Shown here: positions 7,406 to 26,242 of the stretch, one piece after another
How positions within the stretch are numbered: the stretch's first letter is position 1
Layout of the letters: every line of letters starts with the position of its first letter
Origin: Anaerococcus marasmi
GTDB lineage: Bacteria > Bacillota > Clostridia > Tissierellales > Peptoniphilaceae
Direction: 5' to 3'
Assembly (NCBI RefSeq): GCF_900290195.1
Contig: NZ_OLMF01000004.1
Coordinates: 1,415,501-1,479,500 of the forward strand
Length of the DNA: 64,000 bases
Notes under the pieces: model-generated
Databases searched by the model: none
What the model was told of the DNA's origin: nothing
Seen by the model: only the letters and a program-made list of their open reading frames with translations
Made by a program: the position numbers and the translations under genes

Positions 7406-8512
7406 TTATTTTTGATTTAAATTTCTGTCAATATTTTTGACGAAGTCTTGTGAGTTTGTAACCATTGTTTTTGCAGTTAATGTTCCCCTGTCTGATAGTT
7501 TATTAACAGCGAATTCTTGGATATCAACTGTATACATGAATACTGGTCTTATTTCTCCATTAATTTCATTGTATGATGGAGTCATATTACCTGTAGCAAT
7601 CGTAAATAGGATTGCTGATGACATGATTACTGTTGATGATTTTTTGATGTTTCTTCTCATCTCATCTTGGGCTTCGTATACATTGTTATAAGTGTCATTA
7701 AATGTATATCTATCTCTAATTGTTCCAGCTATTACTAGGTTTACATTATTTCTAATTGCAGCTGCAACAAATCCTGTTTCTATACCTTCTTTTTCTACAT
7801 ATTCTTTGATAGAACCGTATTCGTTTACTCTGTTGATTACTTCATAGAAGTTTTCTCTTGTATTTTGGCTATTTAGATATTCTTCTTGGCCTTCTACTGT
7901 ATTAAACTTAGCTCTTTCAAGGTCATAAGCAACAGCTGCCGTACCGCAGAAGATTGCATTTGCATATCCGTTTTCTACAAGTCTAGCCAGAGCATCATCA
8001 CTTTCTTCATCGAGAGATGTCGCTGTACCAAGTACCCAAGTTACATAACCATTGTTTTCTTTTTCGTATTTTAAAACTTCATATAGTTCATCGTAATCTT
8101 TAGAAAAGGCTGTTTCTCTTGATCTTCCTTCTCTAAATCCAAACGTTGCTTCTTCTTTGCTAGATTTATCTACGAAACCTTCTGTATAAACATAGATTCC
8201 TTCAGATCCATCTTCTTTACGTCCAACAACGACTTTGTCACCTTTTTTAAGGTTTCTAAATTCTACAACATCAACTCTTTCATTTCCTGGTTCATCTATT
8301 GCTACTGCAACAGTATCCATTCTAGATTGAAGGGCTAGTACCCATTTATCATTTATCTTGAAATATTCTGGGAAAACTGATAGAGCGTGATAACCTTCTG
8401 GGCTTATTCCGTCTTCTTCTACTTCTACAAGTTTAGCATTTGGAAATTTATCAAATTTCTCATCAAATTCTTTAGGGAAGTATTTTGGCATTTCAAATTT
8501 ATAGTCCATCAT
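7406..8512 (-). CDS. Divergent TIGR00300-family protein (ornithine cyclodeaminase-like, second copy)
   Basis: Protein of 368 residues aligning along its length with the upstream gene product; both belong to the TIGR00300 (LOR/SDH-like) family whose characterised members convert ornithine to proline and ammonia. Motifs conserved in copy 1 are changed here: LGPAVV becomes LGTATS (161-166), GGNAMATHDLE becomes CGTAAVAYDLE (189-199), and GSIRDDGPLP becomes GTIRDRYTFN (263-272). The fold-defining residues around them are kept and the gene shows no decay. It starts immediately after the stop codon of copy 1, with its GAGGAG site inside the end of that gene, so the two are translated together. A non-catalytic or differently specific partner subunit is the likely reading. 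Confidence 0.75.
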   Translation of the reverse strand: MMDYKFEMPKYFPKEFDEKFDKFPNAKLVEVEEDGISPEGYHALSVFPEYFKINDKWVLALQSRMDTVAVAIDEPGNERVDVVEFRNLKKGDKVVVGRKEDGSEGIYVYTEGFVDKSSKEEATFGFREGRSRETAFSKDYDELYEVLKYEKENNGYVTWVLGTATSLDEESDDALARLVENGYANAIFCGTAAVAYDLERAKFNTVEGQEEYLNSQNTRENFYEVINRVNEYGSIKEYVEKEGIETGFVAAAIRNNVNLVIAGTIRDRYTFNDTYNNVYEAQDEMRRNIKKSSTVIMSSAILFTIATGNMTPSYNEINGEIRPVFMYTVDIQEFAVNKLSDRGTLTAKTMVTNSQDFVKNIDRNLNQK

Positions 8513-9691
8513 CTACTCCTCTCTTCCTTGGCTCATTGCCTTTTTATCTTCAACAGAAGCTTCACTACTTGCTTCTTCTACTTCGTAAACATGTTCTTCG
8601 TCATAAGATAGGTATTCTTCTGGAACAAGTTCTTTTTCTAAGTTCACTACAAAGTCTTGAACATTTGTTACAAGAGTTCTTACAGCTATTCCTTCTCTAG
8701 CAGCAGATACTTTTCTAACTGCGTTTTCTGTAACATCTACTGTAAAGATAAATACTGGAACAATATTGCCGTTTTCATCTACCCTATAGCTTGTAGCTGT
8801 CTCTGCAGTTGAAGCTGAGTGAAGGGTTGTAGCAAGACAAATAATAAGATTTGACTTATCTGTAGCAACTCTTACATTGTCCAAAGAATCATATACATTG
8901 CCTGTAACTTCTGGAAGTGGTCCATCATCTCTGATAGATCCAGCTAGAGTAATTGGAACTCCAAGTCTGTTTAGAGTTTTAATAAATCCATCACGAACAT
9001 TTCCTTCATTTATGAATTCATCTATAGAACCAACTTTTCTTATAGCATTTAGTGTATCCAGGTGGTTGTAGTGGCCTAGTGGATCAGATTCTTGAGTGTA
9101 GATATCTTGACCAAGAGCTGTGTTTAGATAACCACCTTCAAGGTCGTGAGTAGCCATAGCATTTCCACCAAGAAGAGCTTGAACATATCCATTTTCTGCA
9201 AGTCTTGATAGACCATTTCTTGTATCATAGTCAAATACAACAGCAGGTCCTAGAACCCAAGTGATATTTCCTTGTGCTTCTTTTTCAGCTCTAAGTAGTT
9301 CGTAAAGAAGTTTGTAGTTTGATGTATTTGATGCCTCAACAAAATCTCCTCCACGAGAAAAAACTTCCTCTGAGAAACCTTGCGCATATTTTAAAACACC
9401 TTCACTACCATCAGTCTCGCTAGCGATAACTACCTTATCACCTTTTTTAAGATTTCTAAACTCTCTTACGAATACCTTTCCATCCTCAACAACTGCAACA
9501 CAGTCTTGAGAACTTCTTTCTGGAATTTGCCAAGATCCATCAACCTTGTAATAGGTTGGCATGTGGCTTGTTAAATAAAAACCCTTTGGGCTTACACCAT
9601 CTTTTGTAACTTCTGCAGTAGTTACATCTTTAGCAGAAGCGTATTTTTCTTCCGAAAAATTAGGTGGTGTAAATAGTAAGTCTTCTCTCAT
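8513..9691 (-). CDS. TIGR00300-family ornithine cyclodeaminase-type protein
   Basis: Protein of 392 residues with the hallmark TIGR00300 segments: an N-terminal domain with FRNLKKGDKVV (78-88), then the Rossmann-like part with WVLGPAVV (145-152), LLGGNAMATHDLEGGYLNTALG (173-194), GSIRDDGPLP (251-260) and CLATTLHS (285-292). Family knowledge: the C-terminal part of cyanobacterial AgrE and archaeal homologs show ornithine cyclodeaminase activity (ornithine to proline plus ammonia); I cite this from memory. The nearby arcC/arcB genes give a source of ornithine. An acidic tail of about 40 residues after EKELVPEEYL is extra. The start ATG has AGGAGG at a good distance, and a -35/-10 pair lies upstream. 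Confidence 0.8.
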   Translation of the reverse strand: MREDLLFTPPNFSEEKYASAKDVTTAEVTKDGVSPKGFYLTSHMPTYYKVDGSWQIPERSSQDCVAVVEDGKVFVREFRNLKKGDKVVIASETDGSEGVLKYAQGFSEEVFSRGGDFVEASNTSNYKLLYELLRAEKEAQGNITWVLGPAVVFDYDTRNGLSRLAENGYVQALLGGNAMATHDLEGGYLNTALGQDIYTQESDPLGHYNHLDTLNAIRKVGSIDEFINEGNVRDGFIKTLNRLGVPITLAGSIRDDGPLPEVTGNVYDSLDNVRVATDKSNLIICLATTLHSASTAETATSYRVDENGNIVPVFIFTVDVTENAVRKVSAAREGIAVRTLVTNVQDFVVNLEKELVPEEYLSYDEEHVYEVEEASSEASVEDKKAMSQGREE

Positions 9692-11259: not shown

Positions 11260-13083
11260 TTACTCAACTGTAACAGATTTTGCAAGGTTTCTTGGCTTGT
11301 CTACATCGATTCCCTTGGCTATTGATGTGTAATAGGCCATTAGTTGGGCTGGTATTGCTGTAAGAAGCGGATAGAGGATATCCAAGGTCTCTGGAATTAT
11401 TAATATCTTATCAGTGATCTTACTCATTCTGGAGTCTTTGTGACTTGTTATGATAAATACATTGGCTCCTCTTGCCACGACTTCTTCGACATTTGATAGA
11501 GTTTTTCCTAAAAGATTCGCCTGGCTCATTATTGCTATAACTGGAGTCTTATCTTCTATTAGGGAAATTGTCCCGTGTTTTAACTCTCCTGCTGCGAAAG
11601 CCTCTGTGTGGATATATGAGACCTCCTTAAGCTTAAGAGCCGCCTCTATGGAAGTTTGGTAGTCAAGGCCACGAGCTATATAAAACAGGCTCTTTTGATC
11701 TTTTATCTCTTCTGCAAAGTCTTTTATTATCTTATCATCTTCTAGGATTTCTCTAATTTTTCCTGGAATCTCCCTTAAGCCTTCTAGAATTTCTCTATAA
11801 TAATCATCGTCTATTCTAGATAGTTTCCTAGCAAAATCAAGGGCTAGGAAATAGAGATTTAGGACTTGGCTAGTGTAGGCCTTGGTACTAGCTACAGCTA
11901 TTTCTGGACCTGCGTAGCAATATATAGACTTATCAGCTTCCCTATCCATGGATGAGGCTAGGGTATTTGTTATAAGAAGGGTCTTAGCTTTCTTTTTCTT
12001 GGCAAAGCTTAAGGCCTTTAGGCTATCTGCTGTCTCTCCTGATTGGGATATAAATATTACCAGGCTCTTCTCATCAAGGAAGGGATCATTATATCTAAAC
12101 TCTGAGGCAAGATCACAGATTACTGGAATCTTGGCAAGTTTTTCTATAAGAGCCTTGCCAACAAGGCCTGCATGGTAGGCTGTTCCACAAGCTACTATAT
12201 AAATCCTTTTAAAGTTTTCTAGATCTTCTTTATCAAATGAATCTCCATCAAGGACGACTTCGTCATTTTTTACATTTAGTCTAATAAGCTCTTCTAAGAC
12301 AGAGGCTTGCTCATTTATTTCCTTGATCATAAAATGGTCGTAGCCTGCCTTAGTAGCTGCATCAACTGACCATTCTATCTTTTTAATTTCTCTGTCTACT
12401 TTTTTATTATCTTTGTCATAGATAGTGTAGGAATCTCCCTTGATATCTACCACATCTCCATTTTCTAGATAGATAACCTCTCTGGTGTATTTTAGTAGAG
12501 ATGGAATATCGCTTGCCATCATGAAGGAATCTTCCATTATTCCTGCAACAAGAGGGCTTTCTTGTCTAATCCCAATAAGTCTATCTGGCTCGTCAGAAGA
12601 TATAATGCCACAAGCATAGGCTCCCACAAGCCTTTTGCGTGCCTTTCTTACAGCTTCTAAGAGATCTCCTTCATAATATTTTTCAAGTATTACAGCTATA
12701 ACTTCAGTATCTGTCGAAGATTTAAACTCGTAGCCTTCTTCTTCTAACTCTTTCTTAAGTTCTCTGTAGTTTTCTATAATTCCATTATGGACTACAGCAA
12801 TCTTACCATTGTTTGAAAGGTGAGGGTGGCTGTTTATATCATTGGCCTCTCCGTGAGTTGCCCATCTGATGTGGCCTATGCCGACTTTGCCTTCGATGGG
12901 ATTCTCCTCCAAGGCCTTCTTCAAATTCTCAAGCTTTCCGGCTCTTTTTACACAAGAAATCTCTCCATCATTAATCACAGCTATGCCTGCTGAGTCGTAA
13001 CCACGATATTCTAATCTTTCTAGCCCATCGATGATCACCTCTCTTGCATCAAGCTTTCCCTTATACGATACTATTCCGCACAT
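11260..13083 (-). CDS. glmS: Glutamine-fructose-6-phosphate aminotransferase
   Basis: Makes glucosamine-6-phosphate from fructose-6-phosphate and glutamine, the entry into peptidoglycan amino-sugar synthesis. The 607-residue length is typical. Residues 1-220 form the class II glutamine amidotransferase domain, with the nucleophile Cys2 (MCGIVSYKG) and the RWATHG and HNGIIENY segments. Two SIS isomerase domains follow, with SQSGETADSL near 350 and AVASTKAYTSQ near 400, and the protein ends in PRNLAKSVTVE. It is a single-gene unit with its own promoter, an upstream glmS ribozyme that would cut the mRNA when the product accumulates, and a terminator. Confidence 0.97.
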   Translation of the reverse strand: MCGIVSYKGKLDAREVIIDGLERLEYRGYDSAGIAVINDGEISCVKRAGKLENLKKALEENPIEGKVGIGHIRWATHGEANDINSHPHLSNNGKIAVVHNGIIENYRELKKELEEEGYEFKSSTDTEVIAVILEKYYEGDLLEAVRKARKRLVGAYACGIISSDEPDRLIGIRQESPLVAGIMEDSFMMASDIPSLLKYTREVIYLENGDVVDIKGDSYTIYDKDNKKVDREIKKIEWSVDAATKAGYDHFMIKEINEQASVLEELIRLNVKNDEVVLDGDSFDKEDLENFKRIYIVACGTAYHAGLVGKALIEKLAKIPVICDLASEFRYNDPFLDEKSLVIFISQSGETADSLKALSFAKKKKAKTLLITNTLASSMDREADKSIYCYAGPEIAVASTKAYTSQVLNLYFLALDFARKLSRIDDDYYREILEGLREIPGKIREILEDDKIIKDFAEEIKDQKSLFYIARGLDYQTSIEAALKLKEVSYIHTEAFAAGELKHGTISLIEDKTPVIAIMSQANLLGKTLSNVEEVVARGANVFIITSHKDSRMSKITDKILIIPETLDILYPLLTAIPAQLMAYYTSIAKGIDVDKPRNLAKSVTVE

Positions 13084-13104: not shown

Positions 13105-13238
13105 TATGAGGCCACTGTATCTTCTCTGTCCACAGGATTGCTCCTGTGTTTTGTCTAATACTAGGGCTGTGAACCCAGACAGCTCCCGCCGAATTTTCGA
13201 TAACTGTCTTCCTCGTCATCCCAAAGGGATCTGGCGCT
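13105..13238 (-). ncRNA. glmS ribozyme (glucosamine-6-phosphate self-cleaving riboswitch)
   Basis: On the minus strand, about 20-155 nt upstream of the glmS start, the leader matches the ribozyme core in order: AGCGCCAGA at the 5' side, GACGAGG, TTATCGAAAATTCGGCGGG (the double-pseudoknot core) and a 3' hairpin CACAGGA/TCCTGTG (13131-13148). By homology, cleavage would fall between A13238 and G13237. The predicted promoter starts transcription about 20 nt upstream of that point. Family knowledge: binding of GlcN6P triggers cleavage and mRNA decay. Confidence 0.93.
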
Positions 13239-13262
13239 TCGTTGTTTTTACCTCATTTTTCT

Positions 13263-13320: not shown

Positions 13321-13509
13321 TTAGATTACTAAAGCTAAAATTATAAGAGGAGAAAGTATTAACAAAACCCAAGGCATAAATACTTTCATCGCCGCAAGGA
13401 ACATAGCCAATTGATCTTTATTTTCGAGATTGTCCTTATCTAGGAGTCTCTCTTTTTCATAGATTTCTTTTTGGCTTTTGCCCTTAAATCTATCTATTGG
13501 AGCCTTCAT
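13321..13509 (-). CDS. Small single-helix membrane protein coupled to oppF
   Basis: Protein of 62 residues. Residues 1-37 are highly charged (a KSQKEIYEKERLLDKDNLENKD-type helix), and 40-62 form one hydrophobic helix running to the C-terminus. Its ATG overlaps the oppF stop codon (ATGA type), so translation is coupled, and the operon terminator follows directly. No known family was recognised. The topology of a charged cytoplasmic head and a C-terminal tail anchor, together with the tight coupling, suggests an accessory subunit of the Opp transporter. That is inference from context. Confidence 0.7.
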   Translation of the reverse strand: MKAPIDRFKGKSQKEIYEKERLLDKDNLENKDQLAMFLAAMKVFMPWVLLILSPLIILALVI

Positions 13510-15119
13510 ATAGCGCTCATTTCTTCTAGTTCTTCTTCCTTTTTAGCTTTTTCTATTTTATTTTTCTCGAAAGCCTTTTGCTTTTCTTCTTCGCTTACAT
13601 CAAGTAAGTGGCATGCCACGAAGTGGCCGTCTTCTCTTTCTTTAAGTTCTGGCTCAAACTGGGCACAAATGTCCATTGCGTATTCGCATCTTGTATGGAA
13701 CCTACATCCTTTTGGAGGTTTTACTGCTGATGGTATATCCCCCTCTATAACTTGTAGCTCTTGGCCCTGATCTACGTCTGTTCTTGGGATAGCACGTAGG
13801 AGGGCTTTGGTGTATGGATGGAGAGGATTTTCGAATATTCTCTCTGATTCACAAAGTTCTACCAAAACTCCAAGATACATTACCCCAATCCTATCTGATA
13901 TATATTTTACAACTGATAGGTCGTGAGTGATGAAAAGATAAGTTAAGTTGTTCTCATCTTTTAGGTCTTGAAGAAGGTTAATGATCTGAGATTGGATAGA
14001 TACGTCAAGGGCACTTACAGCCTCATCGCAAACTATAAAGCTTGGCTTAAGGGCTAGAGCTCTTGCTATACCGATTCTTTGTCTTTGTCCACCTGAGAAT
14101 TGGTGAGGATATCTATGAAGGAAGTAAGGAGCAAGTCCGCACTTTTCCATGGTCTCTCTAATATACTCATTGTATCCTTTTTCTTTTCTACTCTTAAAGA
14201 GTTCATGTCCTAGAACACCTTCTCCGATGATATTTCCTACAGTCATCTTTGTATCCAAAGATCCGTAAGGGTCTTGGAAGATCATTTGTAGGTCCTTTCT
14301 TAAGGCTCTCATCTCCTGGTTGTTAAGCTCAGATAGGTCGATTCCATCATCTCTCTGATCTTCAAGCTCGGCAAATCTCTCGTCATTTTCGAGACTCTTT
14401 CTGTAGGCTTCTATAGATTGATCTTTCTCTTCGATTTCTTTAGTCTTGGCAGATTTTTGGCTGATTAAGTCCTTATATCTGACATCTTCTTCTAGGAATT
14501 TTTCGTATTCTTCCCAAGTCCTTGATCTCATTTGAGTTTTTTGCTCAATCTCTTCGATCTTTTCTAGGATGCTCGCCCTTTGTTTAAGGATGTCATATTT
14601 TTCCTTAAGCATAGTAGATACCTTGTTTAGGTCATCACTTACAAGAAGTCCCCCAGCAATCCTGACCATATTTAAGTAGTTTTCCTCTAGGTCACGACGC
14701 TTAAACATAGCCTTTTCGTTAAGCTCCGCTCTTTTTTCGTCTGTATCAGCATTTTCTAATTCTTCGTAAATCTTATTTAAAGCTTCGATTTCTTCGTGAT
14801 ATTTAGGAAATTGGCTAGGAATCTTCTTGATCATATCTAGCATATAGGCTGGAGCAGTTTCTTCTATGGTCTTTCCGTAATAAAGAGTAGTTCCTTCTGT
14901 TTGATCATATATTTGTAGGAGGGTTCTACCGAAAGTAGACTTACCGCATCCAGATTCTCCTACAAGACCAAGGGTTTCTCCTTGATAGATATCTAGGCTA
15001 ATAGACTCATTAGCATGAACATACTCGCCTGGTCCCTTGTTAAATATAGACTTTTTCTTAAGAGGGAAATACTTCTTTAGATTTCTTATCTTAAATAAGA
15101 CTTTTTTATCATTGTTCAT
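13506..15119 (-). CDS. oppF: Oligopeptide ABC transporter ATP-binding protein OppF with a large coiled-coil insertion
   Basis: Cytoplasmic ATPase subunit of a peptide importer, 537 residues from the ATG at 15119; the family is normally about 310-330. Walker A GESGCGKS is at 54-61, the Q-loop MIFQDPYGSLD near 279, the signature SGGQRQRIGIARAL and Walker B FIVCDEAVSALD near 400, and the OppD/F C-terminal region with the CRFHTRCEYAMDIC cysteines follows. Between about 84 and 265 lies an insertion of some 180 residues, mostly charged and helical, placed just before the Q-loop. The start was chosen because GGAGAGGG precedes this ATG; a longer frame back to 15173 would overlap oppD by 65 bases. It overlaps oppD by 11 bases. 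Confidence 0.92.
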   Translation of the reverse strand: MNNDKKVLFKIRNLKKYFPLKKKSIFNKGPGEYVHANESISLDIYQGETLGLVGESGCGKSTFGRTLLQIYDQTEGTTLYYGKTIEETAPAYMLDMIKKIPSQFPKYHEEIEALNKIYEELENADTDEKRAELNEKAMFKRRDLEENYLNMVRIAGGLLVSDDLNKVSTMLKEKYDILKQRASILEKIEEIEQKTQMRSRTWEEYEKFLEEDVRYKDLISQKSAKTKEIEEKDQSIEAYRKSLENDERFAELEDQRDDGIDLSELNNQEMRALRKDLQMIFQDPYGSLDTKMTVGNIIGEGVLGHELFKSRKEKGYNEYIRETMEKCGLAPYFLHRYPHQFSGGQRQRIGIARALALKPSFIVCDEAVSALDVSIQSQIINLLQDLKDENNLTYLFITHDLSVVKYISDRIGVMYLGVLVELCESERIFENPLHPYTKALLRAIPRTDVDQGQELQVIEGDIPSAVKPPKGCRFHTRCEYAMDICAQFEPELKEREDGHFVACHLLDVSEEEKQKAFEKNKIEKAKKEEELEEMSAI

Positions 15120-16110
15120 TTTCTTCCCTCTCCTTTCTATTTGGATAATGACATCTGATCTTTTGGTTTTCATTTACTGAAACTAAATCAGGCATCACTT
15201 CTATACATTTTTTAGTAGCGTATTTACACCTATCTGCAAACTTGCATCCTTTTGGAAGGTTAAGTGGGTGTGGGACTGAACCTGGTATGATGTCAAGTCT
15301 TTCATTTCTATCTGATGTGATAGATGGGATTGAATTTAGTAGGGCTATTGTATATGGGTGGTTGTAGTCTGTGATATCGTGTTTGAAGATAAACTCAACT
15401 GGTGATTGCTCAACTATTTGTCCACAATACATTACTGCAACTTCATCAGCCATTTGATTTATTACACCAAGGTCGTGGGTAATAAAGAGGATTGATGTAC
15501 CAGCCTTATGCTTAAGATCATTCATTAGTCTTAGGATTTGGGCTTGGATGGTAACATCAAGGGCTGTTGTAGGCTCATCTGCTATAAGTAATTTTGGCTC
15601 ACAAGCAAGGGCCATGGCAATCATCACCCTTTGGTTCATTCCTCCAGATAACTCGAAAGGATATTGCTTGGCCACTACATGTGGATTAGGAATTTTAACA
15701 GCTGCAAGAAGCTCTTCACATCTTTTAGCTGCTTCCTTCTTATTCATTCCCTTATGGAGGATAAGAACTTCTGAGATTTGTTTTTCTACAGTAAAGACTG
15801 GGTTAAGGGAGCTCATAGGTTCTTGGAATATCATAGATATTTTATTGCCTCTGATATGCTCCATTTGGCTAGTCTTAAAGTCTGATATCTTTTCTCCATC
15901 GAATATTATCTCACCATCGTAAATCTTTTGGTTTGACTCAAACAGTTGGAGTATACTCATAGCTGTTTGACTCTTACCAGATCCACTTTCTCCAACAAGA
16001 CCCAAGGTCTTACCAGCATCGACTGTAAAAGATACGTCATTTACAGCCTTGATAAGGCCACGTCTTGTTTCAAAGTAGGTGTGTAGATTTTTTATTTCTA
16101 ATAAACTCAT
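15109..16110 (-). CDS. oppD: Oligopeptide ABC transporter ATP-binding protein OppD
   Basis: First of the two ATPase subunits of the Opp importer, 333 residues, a normal length. Walker A GESGSGKS is near residue 38, the Q-loop MIFQEPMSSLNP near 95, the signature LSGGMNQRVMIAMAL near 155, Walker B KLLIADEPTTALD, the H-loop FITHDLG, and the C-terminal oligopeptide-transporter extension with CKFADRCKYATKKC. Unlike its partner oppF it has no large insertion, so the extra coiled coil is specific to one ATPase. The gene starts eight bases after oppC and overlaps oppF, consistent with one operon. Confidence 0.95.
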   Translation of the reverse strand: MSLLEIKNLHTYFETRRGLIKAVNDVSFTVDAGKTLGLVGESGSGKSQTAMSILQLFESNQKIYDGEIIFDGEKISDFKTSQMEHIRGNKISMIFQEPMSSLNPVFTVEKQISEVLILHKGMNKKEAAKRCEELLAAVKIPNPHVVAKQYPFELSGGMNQRVMIAMALACEPKLLIADEPTTALDVTIQAQILRLMNDLKHKAGTSILFITHDLGVINQMADEVAVMYCGQIVEQSPVEFIFKHDITDYNHPYTIALLNSIPSITSDRNERLDIIPGSVPHPLNLPKGCKFADRCKYATKKCIEVMPDLVSVNENQKIRCHYPNRKEREENEQ

Positions 16111-16118
16111 TTTATAAC

Positions 16119-18083
16119 CTATCTTTCGTTTGCTCTTGGGTCGATGGCATCTCTTAAGGCGTCACCGATTAGGTTTACAGAAAATGATGTCAAAAATACT
16201 GCAAGTGCTGGGAATACCCATCTCCACCAGTAAGTGTTTAGTACATCTGATGATTGGGCTGCAGTAAGCATATTACCCCAAGAAGGAGTTGGCTCTTGTA
16301 CACCAAATCCTAGGAAGGATAGACCAGATTCTGTTAGCAAGTTTCCAGCATAACCTATAGTCGCATTTACAATTACTATTGATAAGATATTTGGGAAGAT
16401 GTGCTTGATCATAATAGACCAGTTCTTAACTCCCAAGGCTCTCGCCGCTGTTATATAATCTCTTTCTCTTTCGGCAAGGATTTGTCCACGGACAAGTCTT
16501 GCAAGTCCCGTCCAACCAAGTAGACCTAGAAGAATCATAACCATAGTGATTCTTTGCTCTTGGCTTGCTCCTGGTGGGAGTAGGGCTGATAGAGAAATCA
16601 ACATTGGATAGAATGGGAAAGATGCCACAATCTCAGAAAATCTCATCAATACATTGTCTATCTTTCCTCCAGCAAAACCTGAAATCATACCGATAAGTAC
16701 ACCGAGGACTATTTGAATTACTGTAGAGATCAAAGAGATTACCATGGTCATCTTACCACCGTGGATTAGTCTTGTGAAAATATCACGACCTTGATCGTCA
16801 GAACCAAATCTAAAACCATTTAGACCCCAAGTTTCGATTTTGCCTTCTTTGTTTACTGCGTAATTGTTAAAATATGAAGAATAAATTTGATCGAATTCTC
16901 CTTCTGGAGTCTTTAGCTCTCCGTAGTTTTCCTTACCCCATTGGTAGATTTTTCCGTTTTCGTCAAGGGCTGTGAAAACTGAATCACTTGCCTTGATATC
17001 TACAAGAGGAGCTTCAAATTTAGGTATCGCATCTCCTGAAACCTTATCTCTAGTAGGTCCCCAAACATAGAGCTTGCCATCTTCCGATAGGGCTGCTGCT
17101 GATGAAGATGTTAGGGCTACTTTTTTAGTCTTAACCTTGCCTGTCTTAAGCTCTTCTGGCATTTGAGTATCAATTTCTGCACCCATTACACCCAAAAGTC
17201 TTATAGATCCGTCCTTCATTATAGCTAGGATATTAATTGGATTTGCTGCAAAATCTACAACTTGTCCCTTTATATCAGAAGGAAGAAGGTTAAGTCTACT
17301 CGCAAGGGTTGATCCCCATACAACTAGGTTGTTTTTCTTTGTAAGAATTACGGAGTATTGAACACCTGCTCCGAGTTTTTCGATTCCTTCCTCTTTTACC
17401 TTAGCCTCATCCATCGGTGGCATTTGGTTTTGTTGGAAGGCATTGTTACCCCAACCGTATATCTCGTTATCTTCTGTAGCAGCAATGATATGCCTATCTC
17501 CTGCCGCTATATCTACGATTTTTTTGTTAGCTAAGGCTTCTTTGGCCTTATCAGGAATTTCTAGTACCTTATCTTCGTTGTCAGATCCCCAAACATAGAC
17601 ATTTCCCTCTTTGCTAAGTCCTGCAGAGAAGGTATTACCTATAGAGATCTTCTCAACTCCTTCTTTTTCTAGATCAGAAGGATAGTTCATATAAGCTCCA
17701 CCTGGAGCAACATTAGTTAAGTTTCCTTGGGAGTAGTATTGGTTAAATGGAAGAACTTTACTTCCTACAAATACTACTAGGACTATCGCTACAAAAAGCA
17801 TAAGTCCTATAATACCCAAAGGGTTTCTAAAGTAGTTTCTAAGGGCTACCTTTCCCGGAGACATGATAGCTTCTTCTTTTAACTTATCATTTTCGTCTTC
17901 CTTTCTTGGTCCCTTATCCACATTTTTATTATCACTGTGGAGTAATTCGTCATCTGATTTATTGTCAAAGGAATTATTACTGTCGTTAAATTCTTCTCCC
18001 TTAGATAATGTGAAGGCTCTTAAGAAGAAATTTTTCAAGAAACTTCCATATGATTTTACAGATTTTTTTAAAGTCGTATTCAT
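16119..18083 (-). CDS. oppC: Oligopeptide ABC permease OppC with an inserted seven-repeat RCC1-like domain
   Basis: Membrane permease of the Opp importer, 654 residues; the family is normally about 300-350. A long acidic cytoplasmic N-terminus (1-75) precedes helix 1 (about 89-107). Residues about 143-420 carry seven RCC1-type repeats of the form IxxIxxGxxxxxALxxDGxxYxWG: ISIGNTFSAGLSKEGNVYVWG, DIAAGDRHIIAATEDNEIYGWG and five more, the expected number for a seven-bladed propeller. The normal OppC sequence then resumes at FGSDDQGRDIFTRLIHG (426-442) and runs to the end, with the permease EAA-type loop RALGVKNWSIMIKHIFPN. The frame is continuous. By OppC topology the insertion lies outside the cell, facing the binding protein. 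Confidence 0.93.
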   Translation of the reverse strand: MNTTLKKSVKSYGSFLKNFFLRAFTLSKGEEFNDSNNSFDNKSDDELLHSDNKNVDKGPRKEDENDKLKEEAIMSPGKVALRNYFRNPLGIIGLMLFVAIVLVVFVGSKVLPFNQYYSQGNLTNVAPGGAYMNYPSDLEKEGVEKISIGNTFSAGLSKEGNVYVWGSDNEDKVLEIPDKAKEALANKKIVDIAAGDRHIIAATEDNEIYGWGNNAFQQNQMPPMDEAKVKEEGIEKLGAGVQYSVILTKKNNLVVWGSTLASRLNLLPSDIKGQVVDFAANPINILAIMKDGSIRLLGVMGAEIDTQMPEELKTGKVKTKKVALTSSSAAALSEDGKLYVWGPTRDKVSGDAIPKFEAPLVDIKASDSVFTALDENGKIYQWGKENYGELKTPEGEFDQIYSSYFNNYAVNKEGKIETWGLNGFRFGSDDQGRDIFTRLIHGGKMTMVISLISTVIQIVLGVLIGMISGFAGGKIDNVLMRFSEIVASFPFYPMLISLSALLPPGASQEQRITMVMILLGLLGWTGLARLVRGQILAERERDYITAARALGVKNWSIMIKHIFPNILSIVIVNATIGYAGNLLTESGLSFLGFGVQEPTPSWGNMLTAAQSSDVLNTYWWRWVFPALAVFLTSFSVNLIGDALRDAIDPRANER

Positions 18084-18084
18084 C

Positions 18085-19047
18085 TTAAGCCTCCAATTGA
18101 ACTCTTGGATCTACTAGGGCATAGGCCACATCCATCAATAAGTTTCCAAGAAGAGTAAGCACAGCATAAAACATTGATAGGGCAAGAATTACATTGTAAT
18201 CTTGAGCCATTACAGCCATTATCAGTTCGTTACCGATTCCCCTAAAAGAGAAAATTCTCTCAGTTATAGCTGAACCCGAAAACATTCCAAGTACAGCCCA
18301 AGTTAGGGCGGTAACTACTGGTATAAGGGCGTTTCTAAAGGCATGAGAATAGATTACGGTCTTCTCTTTTAAGCCCTTACTTCTCGCTGTTCTTATATAA
18401 TCTTGGTCTAGGGCATCTAACATAGAGTTTCTTACATATCTTGATAGGGATGCAAGTGAACCTATGGTTAGGGTCGCTGTTGGTAAAACTAGATACTTAA
18501 CCCATTCTCCAAAGGTATTTTCTCTAGGCATACCATTAGCAGGAAACCATCCTAGCCTAAAGGCAAAGACGAATATCAAAATAAGTCCTATAAAGAATAC
18601 AGGAATTGATAGACCCACTAGGGTCAAAGTCTGGAAGGTCTTATCAAAAGCCCCTCCCTTGTGCGTGGCCGACCTTATTCCTATAAGGACCGAAAGTACA
18701 AATGATAGAATTGTCGAACCAATATTTAAAAATATGGTGTTTTTGAGAGGCTCTGATAGATATTCAGAAACTGGTCTTCTAACTCTGGTAGATTCTCCCA
18801 AATCACCCTTCAAAGTTCTTCCAAGCCATCTTACATATTGCTCAGGCAAGGACTTATCGAGTCCATATCTTGCTTGAAGTGTTTGGTATAGCTCTTCTTG
18901 CTCTTGCTTAGTCATACGACCTGTAGTAGGCATCATAGCCTTGATTGGATCTCCTGGCATAGCTTTAGAGAAAGCAAAAAGCATTATGGATATAATTAGA
19001 GCTACTGGTATTAAATTTATGATTCTCTTAACTATATAACGAAACAT
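18085..19047 (-). CDS. oppB: Oligopeptide ABC permease OppB
   Basis: Membrane permease subunit, 320 residues, normal for OppB/DppB. It begins with the typical MFRYIVKRIINLIPVALIIS helix, has the FxFGDLGESTR-like external segment (GRTLKGDLGESTRVRRPVSEYL), and ends with the EAA-type loop RTARSKGLKEKTVIYSHAFRNALIP and the VDPRVQLEA tail. No insertion is present, unlike its partner OppC. A strong GGAAGGGAAG site precedes the ATG. It is the first gene of oppBCDF plus the small membrane protein gene; the binding-protein genes lie upstream on the same strand behind their own terminators. Confidence 0.95.
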   Translation of the reverse strand: MFRYIVKRIINLIPVALIISIMLFAFSKAMPGDPIKAMMPTTGRMTKQEQEELYQTLQARYGLDKSLPEQYVRWLGRTLKGDLGESTRVRRPVSEYLSEPLKNTIFLNIGSTILSFVLSVLIGIRSATHKGGAFDKTFQTLTLVGLSIPVFFIGLILIFVFAFRLGWFPANGMPRENTFGEWVKYLVLPTATLTIGSLASLSRYVRNSMLDALDQDYIRTARSKGLKEKTVIYSHAFRNALIPVVTALTWAVLGMFSGSAITERIFSFRGIGNELIMAVMAQDYNVILALSMFYAVLTLLGNLLMDVAYALVDPRVQLEA

Positions 19048-19171
19048 ATCTTCCCTTCCTATTTTTTATAACATTGAGATTCGTTATCTTGTTAAAGTAT
19101 ACTGATAAATATGTAGTCTTTTTTAAAAAAATGATAAACAAACCCAAGTTAATAATTTTTATAATTTATAT

Positions 19172-19198
19172 GTTATAATATTAGTCGTATTTTGTCAA
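19172..19198 (-). promoter_or_regulatory. Possible oppB promoter
   Basis: On the minus strand TTGACA (19193-19198) and TATAAC (19172-19177) lie about 125 bp upstream of oppB, with a 15-bp spacer. The hexamers are good but the spacing is short. The rest of the 341-bp space between oppB and oppA holds only the oppA terminator and a catabolite-element-like site. Confidence 0.4.
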
Positions 19199-19240
19199 CC
19201 ACCTATCTTATTTAATTATTATATAAAGAGGTCCGCCAAA

Positions 19241-19254
19241 TGTAAACGTTGGTA
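19241..19254. promoter_or_regulatory. cre-like site upstream of oppB
   Basis: TGTAAACGTTGGTA matches the catabolite-responsive element pattern TGNAANCGNTNNCA at nine of ten fixed positions. It lies about 40 bp upstream of the possible oppB -35. Binding by CcpA is inference. Confidence 0.35.
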
Positions 19255-19342: not shown

Positions 19343-19370
19343 AAAATAAAAAGGCTCACTCAAGTGAGCC
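19343..19370 (-). terminator. Terminator of the first oppA gene
   Basis: Perfect 8-bp stem GGCTCACT/AGTGAGCC (19353-19360 and 19363-19370), followed on the minus strand by TTTTTATTTT. It would separate oppA from oppBCDF transcription. Confidence 0.9.
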
Positions 19371-19388
19371 CCTTTAATTTACTTATTA

Positions 19389-21584
19389 TTAGTTTTCCAA
19401 AGTAAGAGCATTTATTTGATCTTCTGATTGCCATACTGGCGTATTAACATCGAATCCCTTAACTCTCTTTGTGTAACCTGTGTGAAATTGGTTAGCGTAA
19501 AGTGGGATTTCTGGTAGGTAATCATTGTACCAGATTTCGAATTCTTCCCAGTTATCTAAATATTCATCCTTTTTATCGGCAGGTGTCTTACGTAGTTTAA
19601 CTGTCAACTCATCAGCCTTTGGATCATTTACCTTAGAGTAGTTGTAAGGTCCTTCTGAGTTATATTGATACCATGGATCAAATGGTGTACCGAAGTCTGT
19701 ACCCATGTTGAACGCTGTATATTCTGGGTCTTCTTCTGGATAGTAGTAGTAGTTTAGAAGAGTTGCGAATGAACCAGCTGTAACATTGTATTCCATACCA
19801 ACCTGCTTAGCATTGTTTGGTACTTGGTTAGAGATCAATGTTGTAATTGGTGATTCATCAGAACCATATTGGTTAACTACAAGCTTCTTACCATTTTCAT
19901 CATATCTATAATAGTCAAATCCATCTGGGTTAGATGCGAAAGCTTCATCAGCCTTAGCCTTATCCCAAGGTGTAGTTCCATCAGCCTCGAACTTGTAAGG
20001 TGTTTTGTCAAGAAGGGCATTAGCTTGATCTAAGTTCATTTGGTAGTTGATTAGCTTACCTTCAAGATCTGCTCCTCTTTCCTTATACATCCATTGGCTG
20101 CTACCATACATACCGTTAGTTACAACACCGTATCCACCAGCGAAGGATTGTACGAAGCTATTTCTATCCATTAGGTGAGCGATAGCTTGTCTAACTTCTT
20201 TGTATTTTGTACTTCCTCTGTCTGTTAGGAATTTTACGTTACCATAACCGTTTCTTTCGAATGTGTTATATCCACCGATCTTTCCGCTTTCAGCAGCTTC
20301 TCTCATTCTATCGATTGGACCACCTTCAGATTCTTGTTCCCAAAGATCGATATCTCCATTTTCAAGTAAGTCTACAGCAATCTTTGCGTTTACAGTTTGA
20401 AGGATTACATTAGGAATTGTAGCCTTATCACCCTTGAAGTTTCCAGCATAGTTTTCGTTTAGGCTTAGTTTAACCATGTTGTTTTCAAATGATTCAAACT
20501 TGTAAGGTCCTGTTACAACTGCTGGATTAAGTCTATATTCATTAACTTCCTTAAGCATAGCTTCATCGATAAGTTGTTGAGTAGGATCTACATCTCCATT
20601 TTTACGCTCTTCTAGGTCTTTAATTGCTTCATCGTGAGCTTGTTTAGCTTCTTCGTAAGCTTTTTTGTCCTCTTCTGCTGCATCATCTGCTGGAGCTGGA
20701 TTGTTTTCTTCAAAGTCTTCTTTTTGTTTTTTGATTTGTTCATCCAGGTTCTTTACATAGTTTTCTTTCTCTTCATCACTAACTTCATAGCCTTCCTTAG
20801 CAACAAGCTTGTTACCTTCTTTAGAAAGAGCTAAGTTTTCGTTTAGATAGTGCATTGGGTGTGGTGCAACAGCTAGTAGAGATGCTTCTTCGTAGTATGG
20901 AAGGAATGATGCATCAATTGTAACCTTGAATGTGTAGTCATCTACTTTCTCAAGACCTTCAAATACATCACTATCGCCCTTCTTGTAAGCTTCATATCCC
21001 TTAACTGAGTCAGCTCCTGGGTTTGTGGAACCTGTTAGTTTGGTATATTCTGGGTGAGTGTGAAGTAGGGCACCGAATAGGAATTCATCTGCCTTGATTG
21101 GTTCGCCATCAGACCATTTAAGATCTTGTTTGATCTTGAATGTAACAGTCTTTGATCCATCTTCGTTATCTTCTGATAAAGGCTCACCATCTAGAACAGC
21201 TGTATTATTTACCCAAGCTCCAGATTCGTCTTGAACAACTGTTTGGTAACCGTTGTTTCCTTCGATACCAAGATATTTTCTAACCTTAACATCTCCTGAG
21301 TTGTTTGTCCAACCACCATAGAAGTCTCCGTTAAGCTCACCAAGACCTACTACTAGAGTGTCGTCTGATGTTTGTGCCTCAAAGTCTTCAGTGCTTTGTT
21401 CACCAGCTTCTTCACCTTCAGCTGCATCTTTATCGTCTGTAGCTTCTTCGTTTTTATCTTCAGTTTTTGTATCTGCGTCATTATTAGCAGCTTTGTCGTC
21501 TTTATTTTCTCCACCGCCACAAGCAACTAGAGTACTAGCTAGTCCAAGTGCCATCAATGAAGAAAAAACTTTTTTCATTTTCAT
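19389..21584 (-). CDS. oppA: Oligopeptide-binding lipoprotein OppA, copy 1
   Basis: Extracellular peptide-binding lipoprotein (SBP family 5), 731 residues; family members are usually 530-600. The signal peptide ends in a lipobox LVAC with the lipidated Cys22. An acidic linker to about residue 72 is followed by the SBP_5 fold, with the KIKQDLKWSDGEPIKADEFLFG segment (150-170) diagnostic. An insertion of about 60 charged, mostly helical residues (about 268-330, rich in EEK and KAYEEAKQ) is present. The C-terminal half has QAIAHLMDRNSFVQSFAGGYG. It is a close paralog of the gene at 21982-24126, with its own promoter and terminator. ATG at 21584 follows GGGGGAA; a second in-frame ATG two codons on is possible. 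Confidence 0.93.
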   Translation of the reverse strand: MKMKKVFSSLMALGLASTLVACGGGENKDDKAANNDADTKTEDKNEEATDDKDAAEGEEAGEQSTEDFEAQTSDDTLVVGLGELNGDFYGGWTNNSGDVKVRKYLGIEGNNGYQTVVQDESGAWVNNTAVLDGEPLSEDNEDGSKTVTFKIKQDLKWSDGEPIKADEFLFGALLHTHPEYTKLTGSTNPGADSVKGYEAYKKGDSDVFEGLEKVDDYTFKVTIDASFLPYYEEASLLAVAPHPMHYLNENLALSKEGNKLVAKEGYEVSDEEKENYVKNLDEQIKKQKEDFEENNPAPADDAAEEDKKAYEEAKQAHDEAIKDLEERKNGDVDPTQQLIDEAMLKEVNEYRLNPAVVTGPYKFESFENNMVKLSLNENYAGNFKGDKATIPNVILQTVNAKIAVDLLENGDIDLWEQESEGGPIDRMREAAESGKIGGYNTFERNGYGNVKFLTDRGSTKYKEVRQAIAHLMDRNSFVQSFAGGYGVVTNGMYGSSQWMYKERGADLEGKLINYQMNLDQANALLDKTPYKFEADGTTPWDKAKADEAFASNPDGFDYYRYDENGKKLVVNQYGSDESPITTLISNQVPNNAKQVGMEYNVTAGSFATLLNYYYYPEEDPEYTAFNMGTDFGTPFDPWYQYNSEGPYNYSKVNDPKADELTVKLRKTPADKKDEYLDNWEEFEIWYNDYLPEIPLYANQFHTGYTKRVKGFDVNTPVWQSEDQINALTLEN

Positions 21585-21981: not shown

Positions 21982-24126
21982 TTATTCAATTGTCATAGCA
22001 TTGATTTGATCAGCTACTTGCCATACTGGTGTCATCACGTCAAAGCCTTTAATCCTGTTGGTATAACCTGTGTGGAAGACATTTGAGTAGAGTGGGATTT
22101 CTGGTAGGTAGTCGTTGTACCATTTTTGGAATTCTTCCCACTTATCTAGGTAAGCTTCCTTATCTCCTGGCTCTGTTCTTCTTAGGGCAGTAGTTACTTC
22201 ATCCGCCTTTGGATCGTCTACCCTGTTTTTGTTAAATGGACCTTCCTTTGAATAGTATAGCCATTGGTCAAATGGTGTAGCAAAGTCTGTTGCCATTGAG
22301 AAGGCTGTATATTCTGCATCTTCCTTAGGGAAGTTGTAAAGGTCTATTAGGGTTGAGAAGGATCCGCTTGTTACGTTATATTCCATTCCAGCTTGTTTAG
22401 CATTTGGAGGAAGTTGGTTAGATATTAGGGTTGTAATTGGGGATTGTTCTGCACCATATTGATTTACAACGAGCTTGTTTCCGTTTTCATCATATCTATA
22501 GTAGTCGAAGCCTTCTTGGTTTTTGTTAAATTCATCAAGAGCCTTGTCCTTATCCCAAGGAGTTGTTCCATCAGCTTCGAACTTGTATGGAGTTTTGTCA
22601 AGAAGTTCATTTGCCTTATCGATATTTAGAACCCAATTTACCAATTCTCCTTCGACGTCTGCTCCTCTTTCCTTATACATCCATTGGCTTGTACCGTACC
22701 TACCGTTAGTTACAACACCATAACCACCTAAGAAGGATTGGACGAATTCATTCCTATCCATTAGGCTTGCTATAGCTTGCCTTACTTCCTTGTATTGGGT
22801 TGCTCCCCTATCTACTAGGAAGGTTAGGTTTCCATAACCATTTCTCTCGTAAGAACCTACTTGGATTTTGCCATCTTCTGCTGCTTTTTTGAGTTGGTCG
22901 ATCTTTGATCCGTCAGCTTCGCCTTCCCAAATATCTATATCTCCATTTTCTAGAAGGTCTGGTCCAATGTTCTTGTTTACCAATTGAACAATGATATGAG
23001 GAATAGTTGCCTTATCACCTTTGAAGTTTCCTTGGTAGTTTTCATTTAGGTCAAGTCTAACCATGTTGTTTTCGAACTTATCGAACTTGTATGGTCCACA
23101 GGTAACCTTAGGGTTAAATCTGTAATCACTTGTAAGCTTGATCATAGCTTCTTCGATGAGTAATCTAGTAGGATCCACGTCTCCGTCTTTACGAGCTTCA
23201 AGATCTCCTACTTGATTGTCTAATTCTTCCTTGGCTTCTTTGTATTCGTCACTTTCCTTATCAAGGCCTTCGCTATCTTCTTCGAAGCCTTCTTTTAGGA
23301 TTTCTATTTGTTTATCTATAGATTTCTTGTAGTCGTCTATATCCTTATCTGTAACTTCATAGCCTTCTTTAACTACAAGCTTCTTTCCATCTTCTGCTAC
23401 AGCTAGGTTTTCCCCTATATAATGCATTGGGCTAGGTCCTGCGTTTGAAAGGACTTCAACTTCATAATATGGTAGTTGTGAAGGATCTACTGTTAGACTA
23501 AAGCTATAGTCGTCATGTTTTTCAATTCCTTCAAAGCTATCTGTCTCACCATTTTTGAAGGCCTTGTAGCCTAAGAGCGCGTCTGCTCCTATATTCATAG
23601 ATGCAGTAAGTGGGTTAAAGTCCTTGTCTGATTCTAGAAGGATTCCAAATATATAATCATCAGCTGTGATAGGCTCTCCATCTGACCATTTTAGGTCTTT
23701 CTTTATGGTATAAGTTGTTGTTCGTGAGCCATCTTCGTTAATCTTTACTTCAGGGTCTTTTTCAAGGGCAGCTGTGTTTGTTTGAAACTTACCTTCCTCG
23801 TCAAGAACATAGCAGTCATAGCCGTTGTTTCCTTCTATACCCATGAATCTTCTTACCTTTACGTCGTTTGCATCATTGGCATAGCCTTGGATGAAATCTC
23901 CATTTATGGAATCAACTCCCACTACTATAGTGTCATCAGATGTTTGCTTTTCAAAATCTTCTGGAGTCTCTGACACTTTTTCATCTTCTGTTGCTTTTTC
24001 AGTCTCTTCATTTTCGCTCTTTTTATCCGCTCCACCCTTGGTTGAATCTGTGCTAGATCCACATGCGGATAGACTTAGGATGAGTCCTAGAGCCATTAGA
24101 GATGAATAAACTTTTTTAATCTTCAT
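21982..24126 (-). CDS. Oligopeptide-binding lipoprotein OppA, copy 2
   Basis: Second peptide-binding lipoprotein of 714 residues, aligning end to end with the neighbouring oppA. It shares the signal peptide with lipobox LSAC, the SNGDFIQ-like start region, KIKKDLKWSDGEPITADDYIFG in place of the equivalent stretch, the charged insertion (KDIDDYKKSIDKQIEILKEG and following), and nearly identical stretches such as NELLDKTPYKFEADGTTPWD near residue 520. Differences concentrate in the acidic linker, the insertion and parts likely to line the ligand pocket, so the two may take different peptides. The gene is directly upstream of copy 1 on the same strand, with its own promoter and terminator, which points to a tandem duplication. 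Confidence 0.93.
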   Translation of the reverse strand: MKIKKVYSSLMALGLILSLSACGSSTDSTKGGADKKSENEETEKATEDEKVSETPEDFEKQTSDDTIVVGVDSINGDFIQGYANDANDVKVRRFMGIEGNNGYDCYVLDEEGKFQTNTAALEKDPEVKINEDGSRTTTYTIKKDLKWSDGEPITADDYIFGILLESDKDFNPLTASMNIGADALLGYKAFKNGETDSFEGIEKHDDYSFSLTVDPSQLPYYEVEVLSNAGPSPMHYIGENLAVAEDGKKLVVKEGYEVTDKDIDDYKKSIDKQIEILKEGFEEDSEGLDKESDEYKEAKEELDNQVGDLEARKDGDVDPTRLLIEEAMIKLTSDYRFNPKVTCGPYKFDKFENNMVRLDLNENYQGNFKGDKATIPHIIVQLVNKNIGPDLLENGDIDIWEGEADGSKIDQLKKAAEDGKIQVGSYERNGYGNLTFLVDRGATQYKEVRQAIASLMDRNEFVQSFLGGYGVVTNGRYGTSQWMYKERGADVEGELVNWVLNIDKANELLDKTPYKFEADGTTPWDKDKALDEFNKNQEGFDYYRYDENGNKLVVNQYGAEQSPITTLISNQLPPNAKQAGMEYNVTSGSFSTLIDLYNFPKEDAEYTAFSMATDFATPFDQWLYYSKEGPFNKNRVDDPKADEVTTALRRTEPGDKEAYLDKWEEFQKWYNDYLPEIPLYSNVFHTGYTNRIKGFDVMTPVWQVADQINAMTIE

Positions 24127-24442: not shown

Positions 24443-26242
24443 TTATTTTTTGTTTTCGTATAATCTGTCTGAATCTGCTCCTACAAGTCTGTAGTATCTT
24501 ACAGGTAGACCAGAAGAATCTCCCATGTAGCCTTTTCTAGGAGTAACAGCTATTCCATTTTGTCCGTAGGACATGTGGATTATTGTATCATTTGCCCTGT
24601 TTAGGATAAATCCAGTGTGTCCAGCGGCTCCCGCACTTGCACCAGGCCTTCCTGATACGAATATATCTCCGTATCTTATCTCACTTTCAGAGATTTCATA
24701 CAATACCTTGCCTGCTGCTCCTAACTTAAAGAGTGTTTCTGTATTTCCTATAGCTGAGCCTTGTTTTAGGAATCCTCCGTAGATTAGAGACCTATAAACT
24801 GCTGATGAACAATCTGCTGCCCAGTCAGATGTTCTATTCTTCCAGTGCATATCATAAGTTAGGCCAGCTCTTCTTCCTGTAAACATCCACTCAATAACCT
24901 TATCGAGATTCTTTGAGCCTTTAATGTTATTATCTACTGGCTTTGCAAGACCGTTGCCATCAACCTTGTAGGTTACTCCCCTTTGAGTTACTTCTGTGTT
25001 CTTTTGGAGGCCATTTGATGTGAAGTAATAATAATTTCCATCAATCTCCCAAACACCTTCTTGAACGTAACCATTGACATTAGTGTGGTATTTGTTGCCA
25101 TTAAATTCAAACCAAGCGTTCTTTGGATTTGTAGCAACTCCCCTATTGTCTGTCTTGTAGTATCTTCCTGCAGACATTATTCCTTTATTTTGGGCCATGA
25201 CTCCATCTTTATCGAATACATAGGTGTATTTGGCTATAGTATGAGCACCTCTTACAAGTTTTCCGTCATTATCACTTCTATAGGTCTTACCATCTATTGC
25301 AGCCCAAAAGTTTTTAGGATTTGTAATCCTTCCTTCTTTATCGGTTACATATAGTTTTCCGTCTTTTATTTCTTTTTTGCTAGTTGTAAGAGCTCCTTCG
25401 TCATTGAAGTTATAGTAGTCATTTCCAACTTTTGTCACACCCTTATAGATTTTTCCGTTTTCATCTGTGCGATATGTCTTGCCATTTACATTGACCCAAG
25501 AGTTTATCTTGGCTGTTAGGATTCCCCTATCGCTTGCTTCATAGTAGGAATCATTTGTAAGAACCTTCTTGTTTGTTTGAAGACTTCCATCATTTGCAAA
25601 GTAATACTTCTTACCTTCTATTTCTGTAAGGCCCTTGCTTACATTACCTTCACTATCTTTATGGTATACTTTGGAATTTTCTTCATACCAAGAAGACTCG
25701 CTTGTTGATTTATCTTCGCTCCTTGATTTATCCTCTAAGGAAGCTCCCCTATCAGATGTAGAAGTATTAGAATCACGTACTCCAACTTCATTATATATGT
25801 CATCGAGACTAGAATTATCATAATAGATGATATCTTTTGAAGTATCTTCCTTTACTTTTTTATCATCTGCTGGTCCCTTGTCTCCAGAAATCTCCTTAAC
25901 AGAGATCTCTTGTTCAGGAGCAAGTTCCTTCTCGCTAGATTCATCAGCCTCATCTTCTGTATCATTTTCTTCTTTACTATCAGCTTCTAGCTCTTCGCCA
26001 CTTGTCTTATTATATCCCATCTCTTCTAAGTCAGATAGGATCATATCAAGGTTTTCTTCATCGTATGTAGCTATATCATTATCTTCGCTAGTTGAAGCTT
26101 CATCTTCTCCTAAATCTTGTGATAAATTATCATCAACATCTTGTTTATAGTCTTCTTCTGCATATGAATATGTTCCTGACATCAAAGCCTGAGATATAAA
26201 CAGTGTTGATGCTAAAAGTATTGTTTTATTTACCTTCTTCAT
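24443..26242 (-). CDS. Secreted cell-wall amidase with choline-binding-like repeats
   Basis: Exported peptidoglycan hydrolase of 599 residues. A signal peptide (KKVNKTILLASTLFISQALM) is followed by a long acidic, low-complexity region to about residue 180. Then come about a dozen 20-residue repeats of the form WxxxNGKxYxxDxxGxxxxG (about 185-435), like choline/cell-wall-binding repeats. The C-terminal catalytic part (about 440-599) has SDWAADCSSAVYRSL with the likely nucleophile Cys478, GDIFVSGRPG, and AGHTGFI with His542. This pattern fits the Amidase_5 / NlpC-P60-like group known from the phage Dp-1 lysin Pal. The start was placed at the internal ATG (26242) because GAGGTAGAG lies just upstream; five codons earlier there is no ribosome binding site. 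Confidence 0.85.
   Translation of the reverse strand: MKKVNKTILLASTLFISQALMSGTYSYAEEDYKQDVDDNLSQDLGEDEASTSEDNDIATYDEENLDMILSDLEEMGYNKTSGEELEADSKEENDTEDEADESSEKELAPEQEISVKEISGDKGPADDKKVKEDTSKDIIYYDNSSLDDIYNEVGVRDSNTSTSDRGASLEDKSRSEDKSTSESSWYEENSKVYHKDSEGNVSKGLTEIEGKKYYFANDGSLQTNKKVLTNDSYYEASDRGILTAKINSWVNVNGKTYRTDENGKIYKGVTKVGNDYYNFNDEGALTTSKKEIKDGKLYVTDKEGRITNPKNFWAAIDGKTYRSDNDGKLVRGAHTIAKYTYVFDKDGVMAQNKGIMSAGRYYKTDNRGVATNPKNAWFEFNGNKYHTNVNGYVQEGVWEIDGNYYYFTSNGLQKNTEVTQRGVTYKVDGNGLAKPVDNNIKGSKNLDKVIEWMFTGRRAGLTYDMHWKNRTSDWAADCSSAVYRSLIYGGFLKQGSAIGNTETLFKLGAAGKVLYEISESEIRYGDIFVSGRPGASAGAAGHTGFILNRANDTIIHMSYGQNGIAVTPRKGYMGDSSGLPVRYYRLVGADSDRLYENKK

Follow-up and report, generated by a model that had tools for sequence, protein, structure and literature searches.

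A predicted seven-bladed propeller in the outer loop of OppC, usually accompanied by a helical domain in OppF, marks a distinct clade of Opp importers

Peptide importers have been treated as a settled five-part machine. In E. coli, the TM1-TM2 region is periplasmic in both DppB and DppC; DppC binds DppF, DppB binds DppD, and a scoop is located on DppB (from the accessible part of PMC12136057). In comparison with E. coli OppBCDF (8z21) and DppABCDF (8z1v-8z1z), OppABCD and DppABCD of M. tuberculosis and the NCBIfam family Opp4C, the operon analysed here has a similar A-B-C-D-F organization, permease core, OppC_N and BPD_transp_1 domains and NBD fold, but differs in having a propeller insert of ~300 residues in the TM1-TM2 loop of OppC and an insert of ~170 aa in OppF. 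Sequence comparison and structural models together show a distinct Opp clade, with a predicted propeller in the extracellular TM1-TM2 loop, a fixed-length linker to TM2 and, in most members, a predicted all-helical cytoplasmic domain in OppF. A widespread version of the five-part machine has an extra outer domain and usually also an extra inner one.

The window, i.e., the whole stretch of DNA that was analysed, comprises 64,000 nucleotides of Anaerococcus marasmi, a member of a human-associated genus. It contains an operon in which OppC is accompanied by OppA, OppB, OppD and OppF partners:

13506..15173, minus strand: oppF, ATPase with helical insert (longest ORF, 555 aa; the probable start at 15119 would give 537 aa)
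14352..14870, minus strand: predicted helical domain inserted in OppF (approximate limits, residues 84-256 in the 537-aa version)
15109..16110, minus strand: oppD, ordinary ATPase (333 aa)
16119..18083, minus strand: oppC, permease with inserted RCC1-like propeller (654 aa; OppC_N, RCC1_2 and BPD_transp_1)
16122..16814, minus strand: OppC permease core, residues 424-654, with TM2-TM6 and the TAARALG coupling loop
16782..16829, minus strand: fusion junction, W-G-x-[KNDE]-G-[FY]-x-x-G-[ST]-D-x-x-G-R-D
16824..17657, minus strand: seven-bladed RCC1-like propeller, residues 143-420 (from Pfam, repeats, AlphaFold2 and Foldseek)
17658..17753, minus strand: link from TM1 to blade 1, residues 111-142, with conserved NxxPG..P
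17754..17822, minus strand: TM1 of OppC, residues 88-110 (hydropathy of 3.04 at 89-107; predicted helix at 88-110)
18085..19047, minus strand: oppB (320 aa, no insert)
19170-19198 and 19218-19246, minus strand: promoter-like sites before oppB
19347..19376, minus strand: terminator-like hairpin after oppA1
19389..21584, minus strand: oppA1, binding protein (731 aa)
21982..24126, minus strand: oppA2, second binding protein (714 aa)

The hairpin after oppA1 and the promoter-like sites before oppB are suggestive, with scan totals no higher than those of shuffles. The SBP_bac_5 and oligo_HPY partners suggest that this importer transports peptides. An additional Opp system of the ordinary kind is encoded in the genome (OppC, 341 aa; OppF, 327 aa). 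Gene order around the fusion is constant, as oppB is upstream and oppD downstream of oppC in all 65 fusion loci having both genes complete.

The first-pass annotation proposed seven RCC1-like repeats in OppC, between TM1 and the GSDxxGRD motif, and Pfam, the repeat pattern and the structural model agree on this arrangement. Translation of 16824-17657 (minus strand) gives exactly residues 143-420. The insert scored 110 bits with RCC1_2 (cut-off, 22) and 28 bits with RCC1 (cut-off, 21.7), and OppC scored 124.2 with the whole-domain model WD40_RLD, under its cut-off of 150. It is flanked on one side by OppC_N (residues 75-119; 31.2 bits, cut-off 23.9) and on the other by BPD_transp_1 (residues 461-651; 111.2 bits, cut-off 26.4). 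Sequence matches in the PDB were OppC/DppC chains for residues ~422-651 and HERC2, UVR8, BLIP-II and other RCC1-like propellers for the insert. A regular expression recovered six of the seven repeats, and the seventh (blade 5, residues 319-342) is visible in both sequence and model; blade 4 lacks the WG signature and reads LLG. RCC1_2 and BPD_transp_1 were both matched by every one of the 75 rows of alignment A3, the window's among them, so the fusion is neither a chance event nor an assembly artefact.

Ordinary OppC proteins are 269-341 aa long (21 control operons), and the TM1-TM2 outer loop of the fused OppC is not short. Both boundaries of the insert are constrained. The segment from TM1 to blade 1 (residues 108-143) is 32-37 aa long across the 75 rows of A3, and that leading from the final strand into helix TM2 (residues 418-436) is 19 aa in every row, with invariant junction residues W419, G420, G423, G427 and D429. 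One fusion OppC of 696 aa (L092:799-2889) has ~70 additional residues within the propeller.

OppC was modelled with AlphaFold2 as a single chain from the 75 rows of A3 (mean pLDDT, 86.2; pTM, 0.79). In this model, residues 143-420 fold into seven three-stranded blades (143-166, 189-212, 234-257, 275-297, 319-341, 360-383 and 397-420), and means over blocks of 10 residues are 85-96 there. Foldseek ranked seven-bladed BLIP-II first (3qi0_A; TM-score of 0.84 on the target) and E. coli OppC second (8z21_B; TM-score of 0.74). The insert is thus a closed seven-bladed propeller in the model, as had been anticipated from the number of repeats. A freely oriented two-domain chain would be expected to have a pTM lower than 0.79, and the propeller is therefore probably held in a defined pose relative to the permease.

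In OppC-type permeases the coupling loop (the TAARALG region, ~residues 542-549) is cytoplasmic. Counting back from this loop through TM4, TM3 and TM2 places the propeller outside the membrane, which supports the earlier assignment of the insertion to the outer face; by Opp topology and the model, this is its predicted location.

A search for the spread of the fusion, proposed in the first-pass annotation, found it in all 31 Anaerococcus genomes searched, in 44 of 130 genomes of the family (31 Anaerococcus and 13 others) and in 64 of 249 genomes of the order, one of which (G223) is matched only partly, in a short frame. Six more genomes of the order matched only other RCC1 proteins, as judged by frame and coverage. 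In even draws, the fusion was present in at least 17 of 391 genomes of the class (two of the 17 matched in pieces, and their ORFs were checked) and, at E <= 1e-25, in 14 of 398 genomes of the phylum. The phylum draw gave seven other matches, in frames of 483-1723 aa, and the sole frame inspected (G773) contains RCC1 repeats, with no permease encoded in the part available. PF00415 alone was uninformative, with no match in the window's genome or in 14 controls.

The wide propeller alignment (A2) had no stretch conserved enough for a locus search, and a degenerate DNA pattern of the junction was therefore used. Named genomes contained at least 117 matching stretches, and 116 of the 117 listed are true fusions; a plain OppC (L244) also matches the pattern. 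Among the 80 named matches listed are Anaerococcus, Erysipelothrix, Dielma, Hungatella, Gemmiger and Christensenella, many rumen or gut Clostridia, four Spirochaetota metagenome-assembled genomes (MAGs) and one Anaerolineaceae MAG. The Chloroflexota record (L162) lies next to a Clostridia MAG in the permease tree and may be a binning error. Two complete propeller-Opp operons are found in tandem in one genome (G187; L127 4957-6807 and 12959-14806), and in another (G020) two fusion OppC genes are carried by separate contigs. The fusion therefore reaches other Bacillota and some Spirochaetota, and propeller-OppC is a conserved arrangement of a large Opp clade that is not unique to the window. The first-pass view that this is not a standard arrangement requires some qualification in the light of that clade, although the arrangement was not met with in any paper.

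In a first tree of the permease domain, 124 fusion rows were split from 21 ordinary OppC with support of 100/99, and long branches were flagged both within the ordinary OppC and at their connection to the fusions. These 21 controls were 20 hand-picked from 58 listed ordinary-OppC matches in the window's family plus the genome's own second Opp. A second tree, sampling 63 of the 124 fusion rows (most at random), the 21 controls and 22 nearest relatives from 196 class genomes, split the 63 from the 43 others with support of 100/100. No propeller-free OppC occurs inside the fusion clade in either tree, and a single insertion event suffices in these samples, because the fusions form one side of a branch. 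In the first tree Anaerococcus groups with Erysipelotrichaceae, while members of its own family (G050-G052, G059 and G074) are placed elsewhere, which suggests horizontal transfer of the fusion.

Among the closest relatives that fall outside the clade, the TM1-TM2 loop often holds a different insert, of roughly 50 to 310 aa, and none of those scanned contained a Pfam domain over cut-off. This outer loop of OppC appears prone to domain gain, because sister lineages carry different inserts there, and, given these unnamed domains, it looks like a general site for adding function. The same inserts could mean that the loop simply tolerates insertions and that the propeller is neutral or structural filler with no specific role. 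We consider this very unlikely, as one insertion, with its seven blades, linkers of fixed length and invariant residues, has been retained across a wide clade, and neither tree places a propeller-free OppC within that clade. Several of the insert-bearing relatives are Clostridia with inserts of ~130 to 310 aa (L297, L299-L305, L307, L310, L313 and L314, permease ORFs overlapping 1501-2190), and such permeases often have GMD instead of the GRD motif.

The first-pass annotation did not include the OppF insert, which is co-inherited with the propeller. Alignment places this insert between the "YYGK" strand, after Walker A, and the Q-loop. In the AlphaFold2 model of OppF (54 rows; pLDDT, 90.6; pTM, 0.89) it is all-helical (helices 91-103, 105-122, 127-160, 164-198, 202-211 and 213-242), and the remainder of the model matches chain D of 8z21, presumably OppF from the chain order. 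No known family was found for the insert: PDB profile matches were mostly coiled coils (best E, 0.00077), and Pfam searches of 24 members returned 18 families, each matching one of the 24.

Within the order, the OppF insert was found in 63 of 64 fusion genomes and in none of the 185 others, from related genomes that do not provide independent tests and with at most 13 candidates scored per genome, such that a weak case could be missed among the 185. The fusion genome in which none was found (G200) is represented by a 3.5-kb contig ending inside oppD. OppF and OppC are on different contigs in G206, G223 and G225, and both genes are partial in G223. OppF is at least 450 aa long in 55 of 66 fusion operons and in none of the 21 control operons, where it is 218-391 aa; two proteins, of 411 aa (L033, in which the gene is split) and 428 aa (L159), fall between the length classes, and nine of the 66 are 334-355 aa. 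The range for OppD across 79 fusion operons is 312-369 aa. All but one of the nine short OppF forms belong to one subclade of the first tree, making loss of the insert likely, and the propeller does not require the insert, as at least nine of the 66 fusion operons have a short OppF. The window's operon has the insert and so belongs with the members of the proposed RCC1-OppC clade that carry it. Because DppC binds DppF, the propeller and OppF insert would be on the same half-transporter, on opposite sides of the membrane. The OppF proteins of two Erysipelothrix records (L154:3630-5102 and L176:3004-4494) lack the iron-sulphur cysteine pattern kept by the other aligned OppF.

We propose, with a probability of roughly 0.4, that the propeller serves as a rigid arm on which OppA docks, with the helical domain of OppF as its inner regulator. 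On the C side the propeller would provide a rigid platform for protein binding, catching peptide-loaded OppA and positioning it above the OppB/OppC gate, across from the scoop of OppB. The OppF domain would sense or limit the ATPase stroke or bind a cytoplasmic partner, and outer docking and inner ATP use would thereby be tuned together. RCC1-like and BLIP-II propellers are protein-binding modules, and the BLIP-II-TEM-1 complex is among the Foldseek match titles.

Co-variation was assessed by comparing chain-to-chain distances with the other chains held constant (partial r). In 33 non-redundant operons, the value for propeller and OppA was 0.29 (5-95%, 0.19-0.39), against a label-shuffled 95% point of 0.10. 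It exceeded those of the propeller with its own permease (0.20) and with OppB (0.14) and was below those of OppA with the OppC core (0.36) and OppB (0.43). For the 15 operons in which every part was complete, values were 0.61 (C-B), 0.52 (D-F) and 0.37 (C-F) for known contacts, and those of the propeller were 0.31 (OppA), 0.29 (OppB) and 0.27 (OppF insert). The method is not clean, as OppA and OppD gave 0.29 though unable to touch and OppB and OppD gave -0.02 though touching, and this lowers confidence in the docking reading; co-variation of propeller and OppA could also result from shared surface exposure. The first-pass suggestion that the propeller positions the binding protein is weakly and indirectly favoured, through this co-variation, from a method that also gave a false contact, and through the rigid mounting of the propeller. 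It may alternatively gather peptides, as the first-pass annotation also suggested.

In 72 of 75 rows the propeller has no net positive charge (median, -12; pI 4.8), and OppA is strongly acidic (median net charge, -56). Simple attraction of charges is disfavoured as a basis for docking, since both partners are acidic. An acidic domain is also a poor fit to a polyanionic wall, and cell wall binding, another role suggested in the first-pass annotation, is weakly disfavoured. An anchor to the cell wall or teichoic acid, fixing the importer beneath the wall, would suit the mostly Gram-positive groups among the 80 named matches listed, but the four Spirochaetota MAG records also carry the fusion and their envelope differs from the Gram-positive one; with the charge of the propeller, this makes such an anchor the least probable of the roles considered here.

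Conservation was 0.51 in the loops between strands 1 and 2, 0.47-0.60 in strands and 0.38 in linkers, and no ligand face of the propeller stood out by loop class. It is unlikely that the propeller is itself a receptor or pre-filter, binding peptides or a surface protease and passing substrates to OppA. Propellers do have a ligand-binding face, this one is placed at the entry gate, and the window's lineage includes asaccharolytic peptide users, but conservation singles out no such face and OppA already fills the role of receptor.

It is possible, though in our view doubtful, that the system is a sensing importer, in which the propeller binds an outer signal (peptide, wall fragment or host protein) and the OppF domain relays its state or throttles the ATPase, the two forming one C-F regulatory axis. 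Co-inheritance of both inserts, on one half-transporter, would be in line with this, as would their weak partial r of 0.27 in 15 operons, a histidine kinase located 3.5 kb away (27673-29181) and the precedent of VraG/GraS for a permease loop serving a sensor (accessible part of PMC7951975). Some fusions, however, lack the OppF domain, and no widely shared gene was found beside the operon in 42 loci, many with short flanks, the widest cluster of neighbour genes spanning six. A more speculative proposal, which we regard as tentative and rather doubtful, is that the outer propeller and inner OppF domain lie at either end of a single allosteric line that runs through the C-F half, giving a gated-receptor peptide transporter spread horizontally through gut Bacillota and spirochaetes. 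If true, this would be a kind of Opp system undescribed in the literature searched. Their additional outer and, usually, inner domains make propeller-Opp systems a natural test of how binding proteins dock and how docking is coupled to ATP use.

Several other features were observed in and around the operon. Both OppA1 and OppA2 have an extra charged, helical-looking stretch of ~80 aa ahead of the conserved GPYKF region. This coiled-coil-like stretch was rejected as a part of the system, as it is present in six of 15 aligned OppA (the window's two, L034-L036 and L239) and absent from nine. Adjoining the operon, 24443-26257 encodes a protein of 604 aa that combines an Amidase_5 domain with choline-binding repeats. 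The histidine kinase (502 aa), whose distance is measured from oppA2, overlaps an upstream ORF of 221 aa, and the pair spans 27673-29833. A glmS ribozyme (13106-13249; 86.4 bits) lies upstream of an SIS/glutamine-amidotransferase gene (11260-13083), and 7406-9691 contains a tandem gene pair (368 and 392 aa) with ArgZ-like arginine dihydrolase C-terminal domains.

Nothing on RCC1 in OppC, or on the OppF insert, was found in the open-access literature, a scope outside which most subscription papers and bioRxiv preprints fall. In the accessible parts of PMC2950845 and PMC9491525 the relevant terms are present as unrelated list entries. The architecture may be listed automatically by domain databases. 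Among NCBIfam equivalogs, the best model for OppC was the oligopeptide permease Opp4C (305.8 bits, below its cut-off of 350), and the insert-free OppB scored 294.5 with Opp4B, likewise below the cut-off of 450.

BLIP-II (beta-lactamase inhibitory protein II), the best structural match, is a seven-bladed RCC1-like propeller of similar size, but it is free-standing, whereas the domain described here lies within a membrane permease, with 24% identity in the structural match. Since BLIP-II is a free-standing secreted inhibitor of class A beta-lactamase, the predicted propeller in the window is not BLIP-II. RCC1, UVR8 and HERC2 share the repeat family and propeller fold, but their RCC1-like domains are eukaryotic, soluble and longer (350-400 residues), and we know of no counterpart to Ran exchange or light sensing in the window's OppC. 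Bce/Vra-type permeases are of an FtsX-like family and are not known to have a binding protein. As in the fused OppC, they have an outer domain in a permease loop (accessible part of PMC7951975). The window's OppC is not of this type, because it has a BPD_transp_1 core, matched the FtsX model of Pfam with an E of 0.56 only and has no widely shared neighbour gene in the 42 loci. It resembles the Bce/Vra sensor permeases at most in its working and is not a member of that family.
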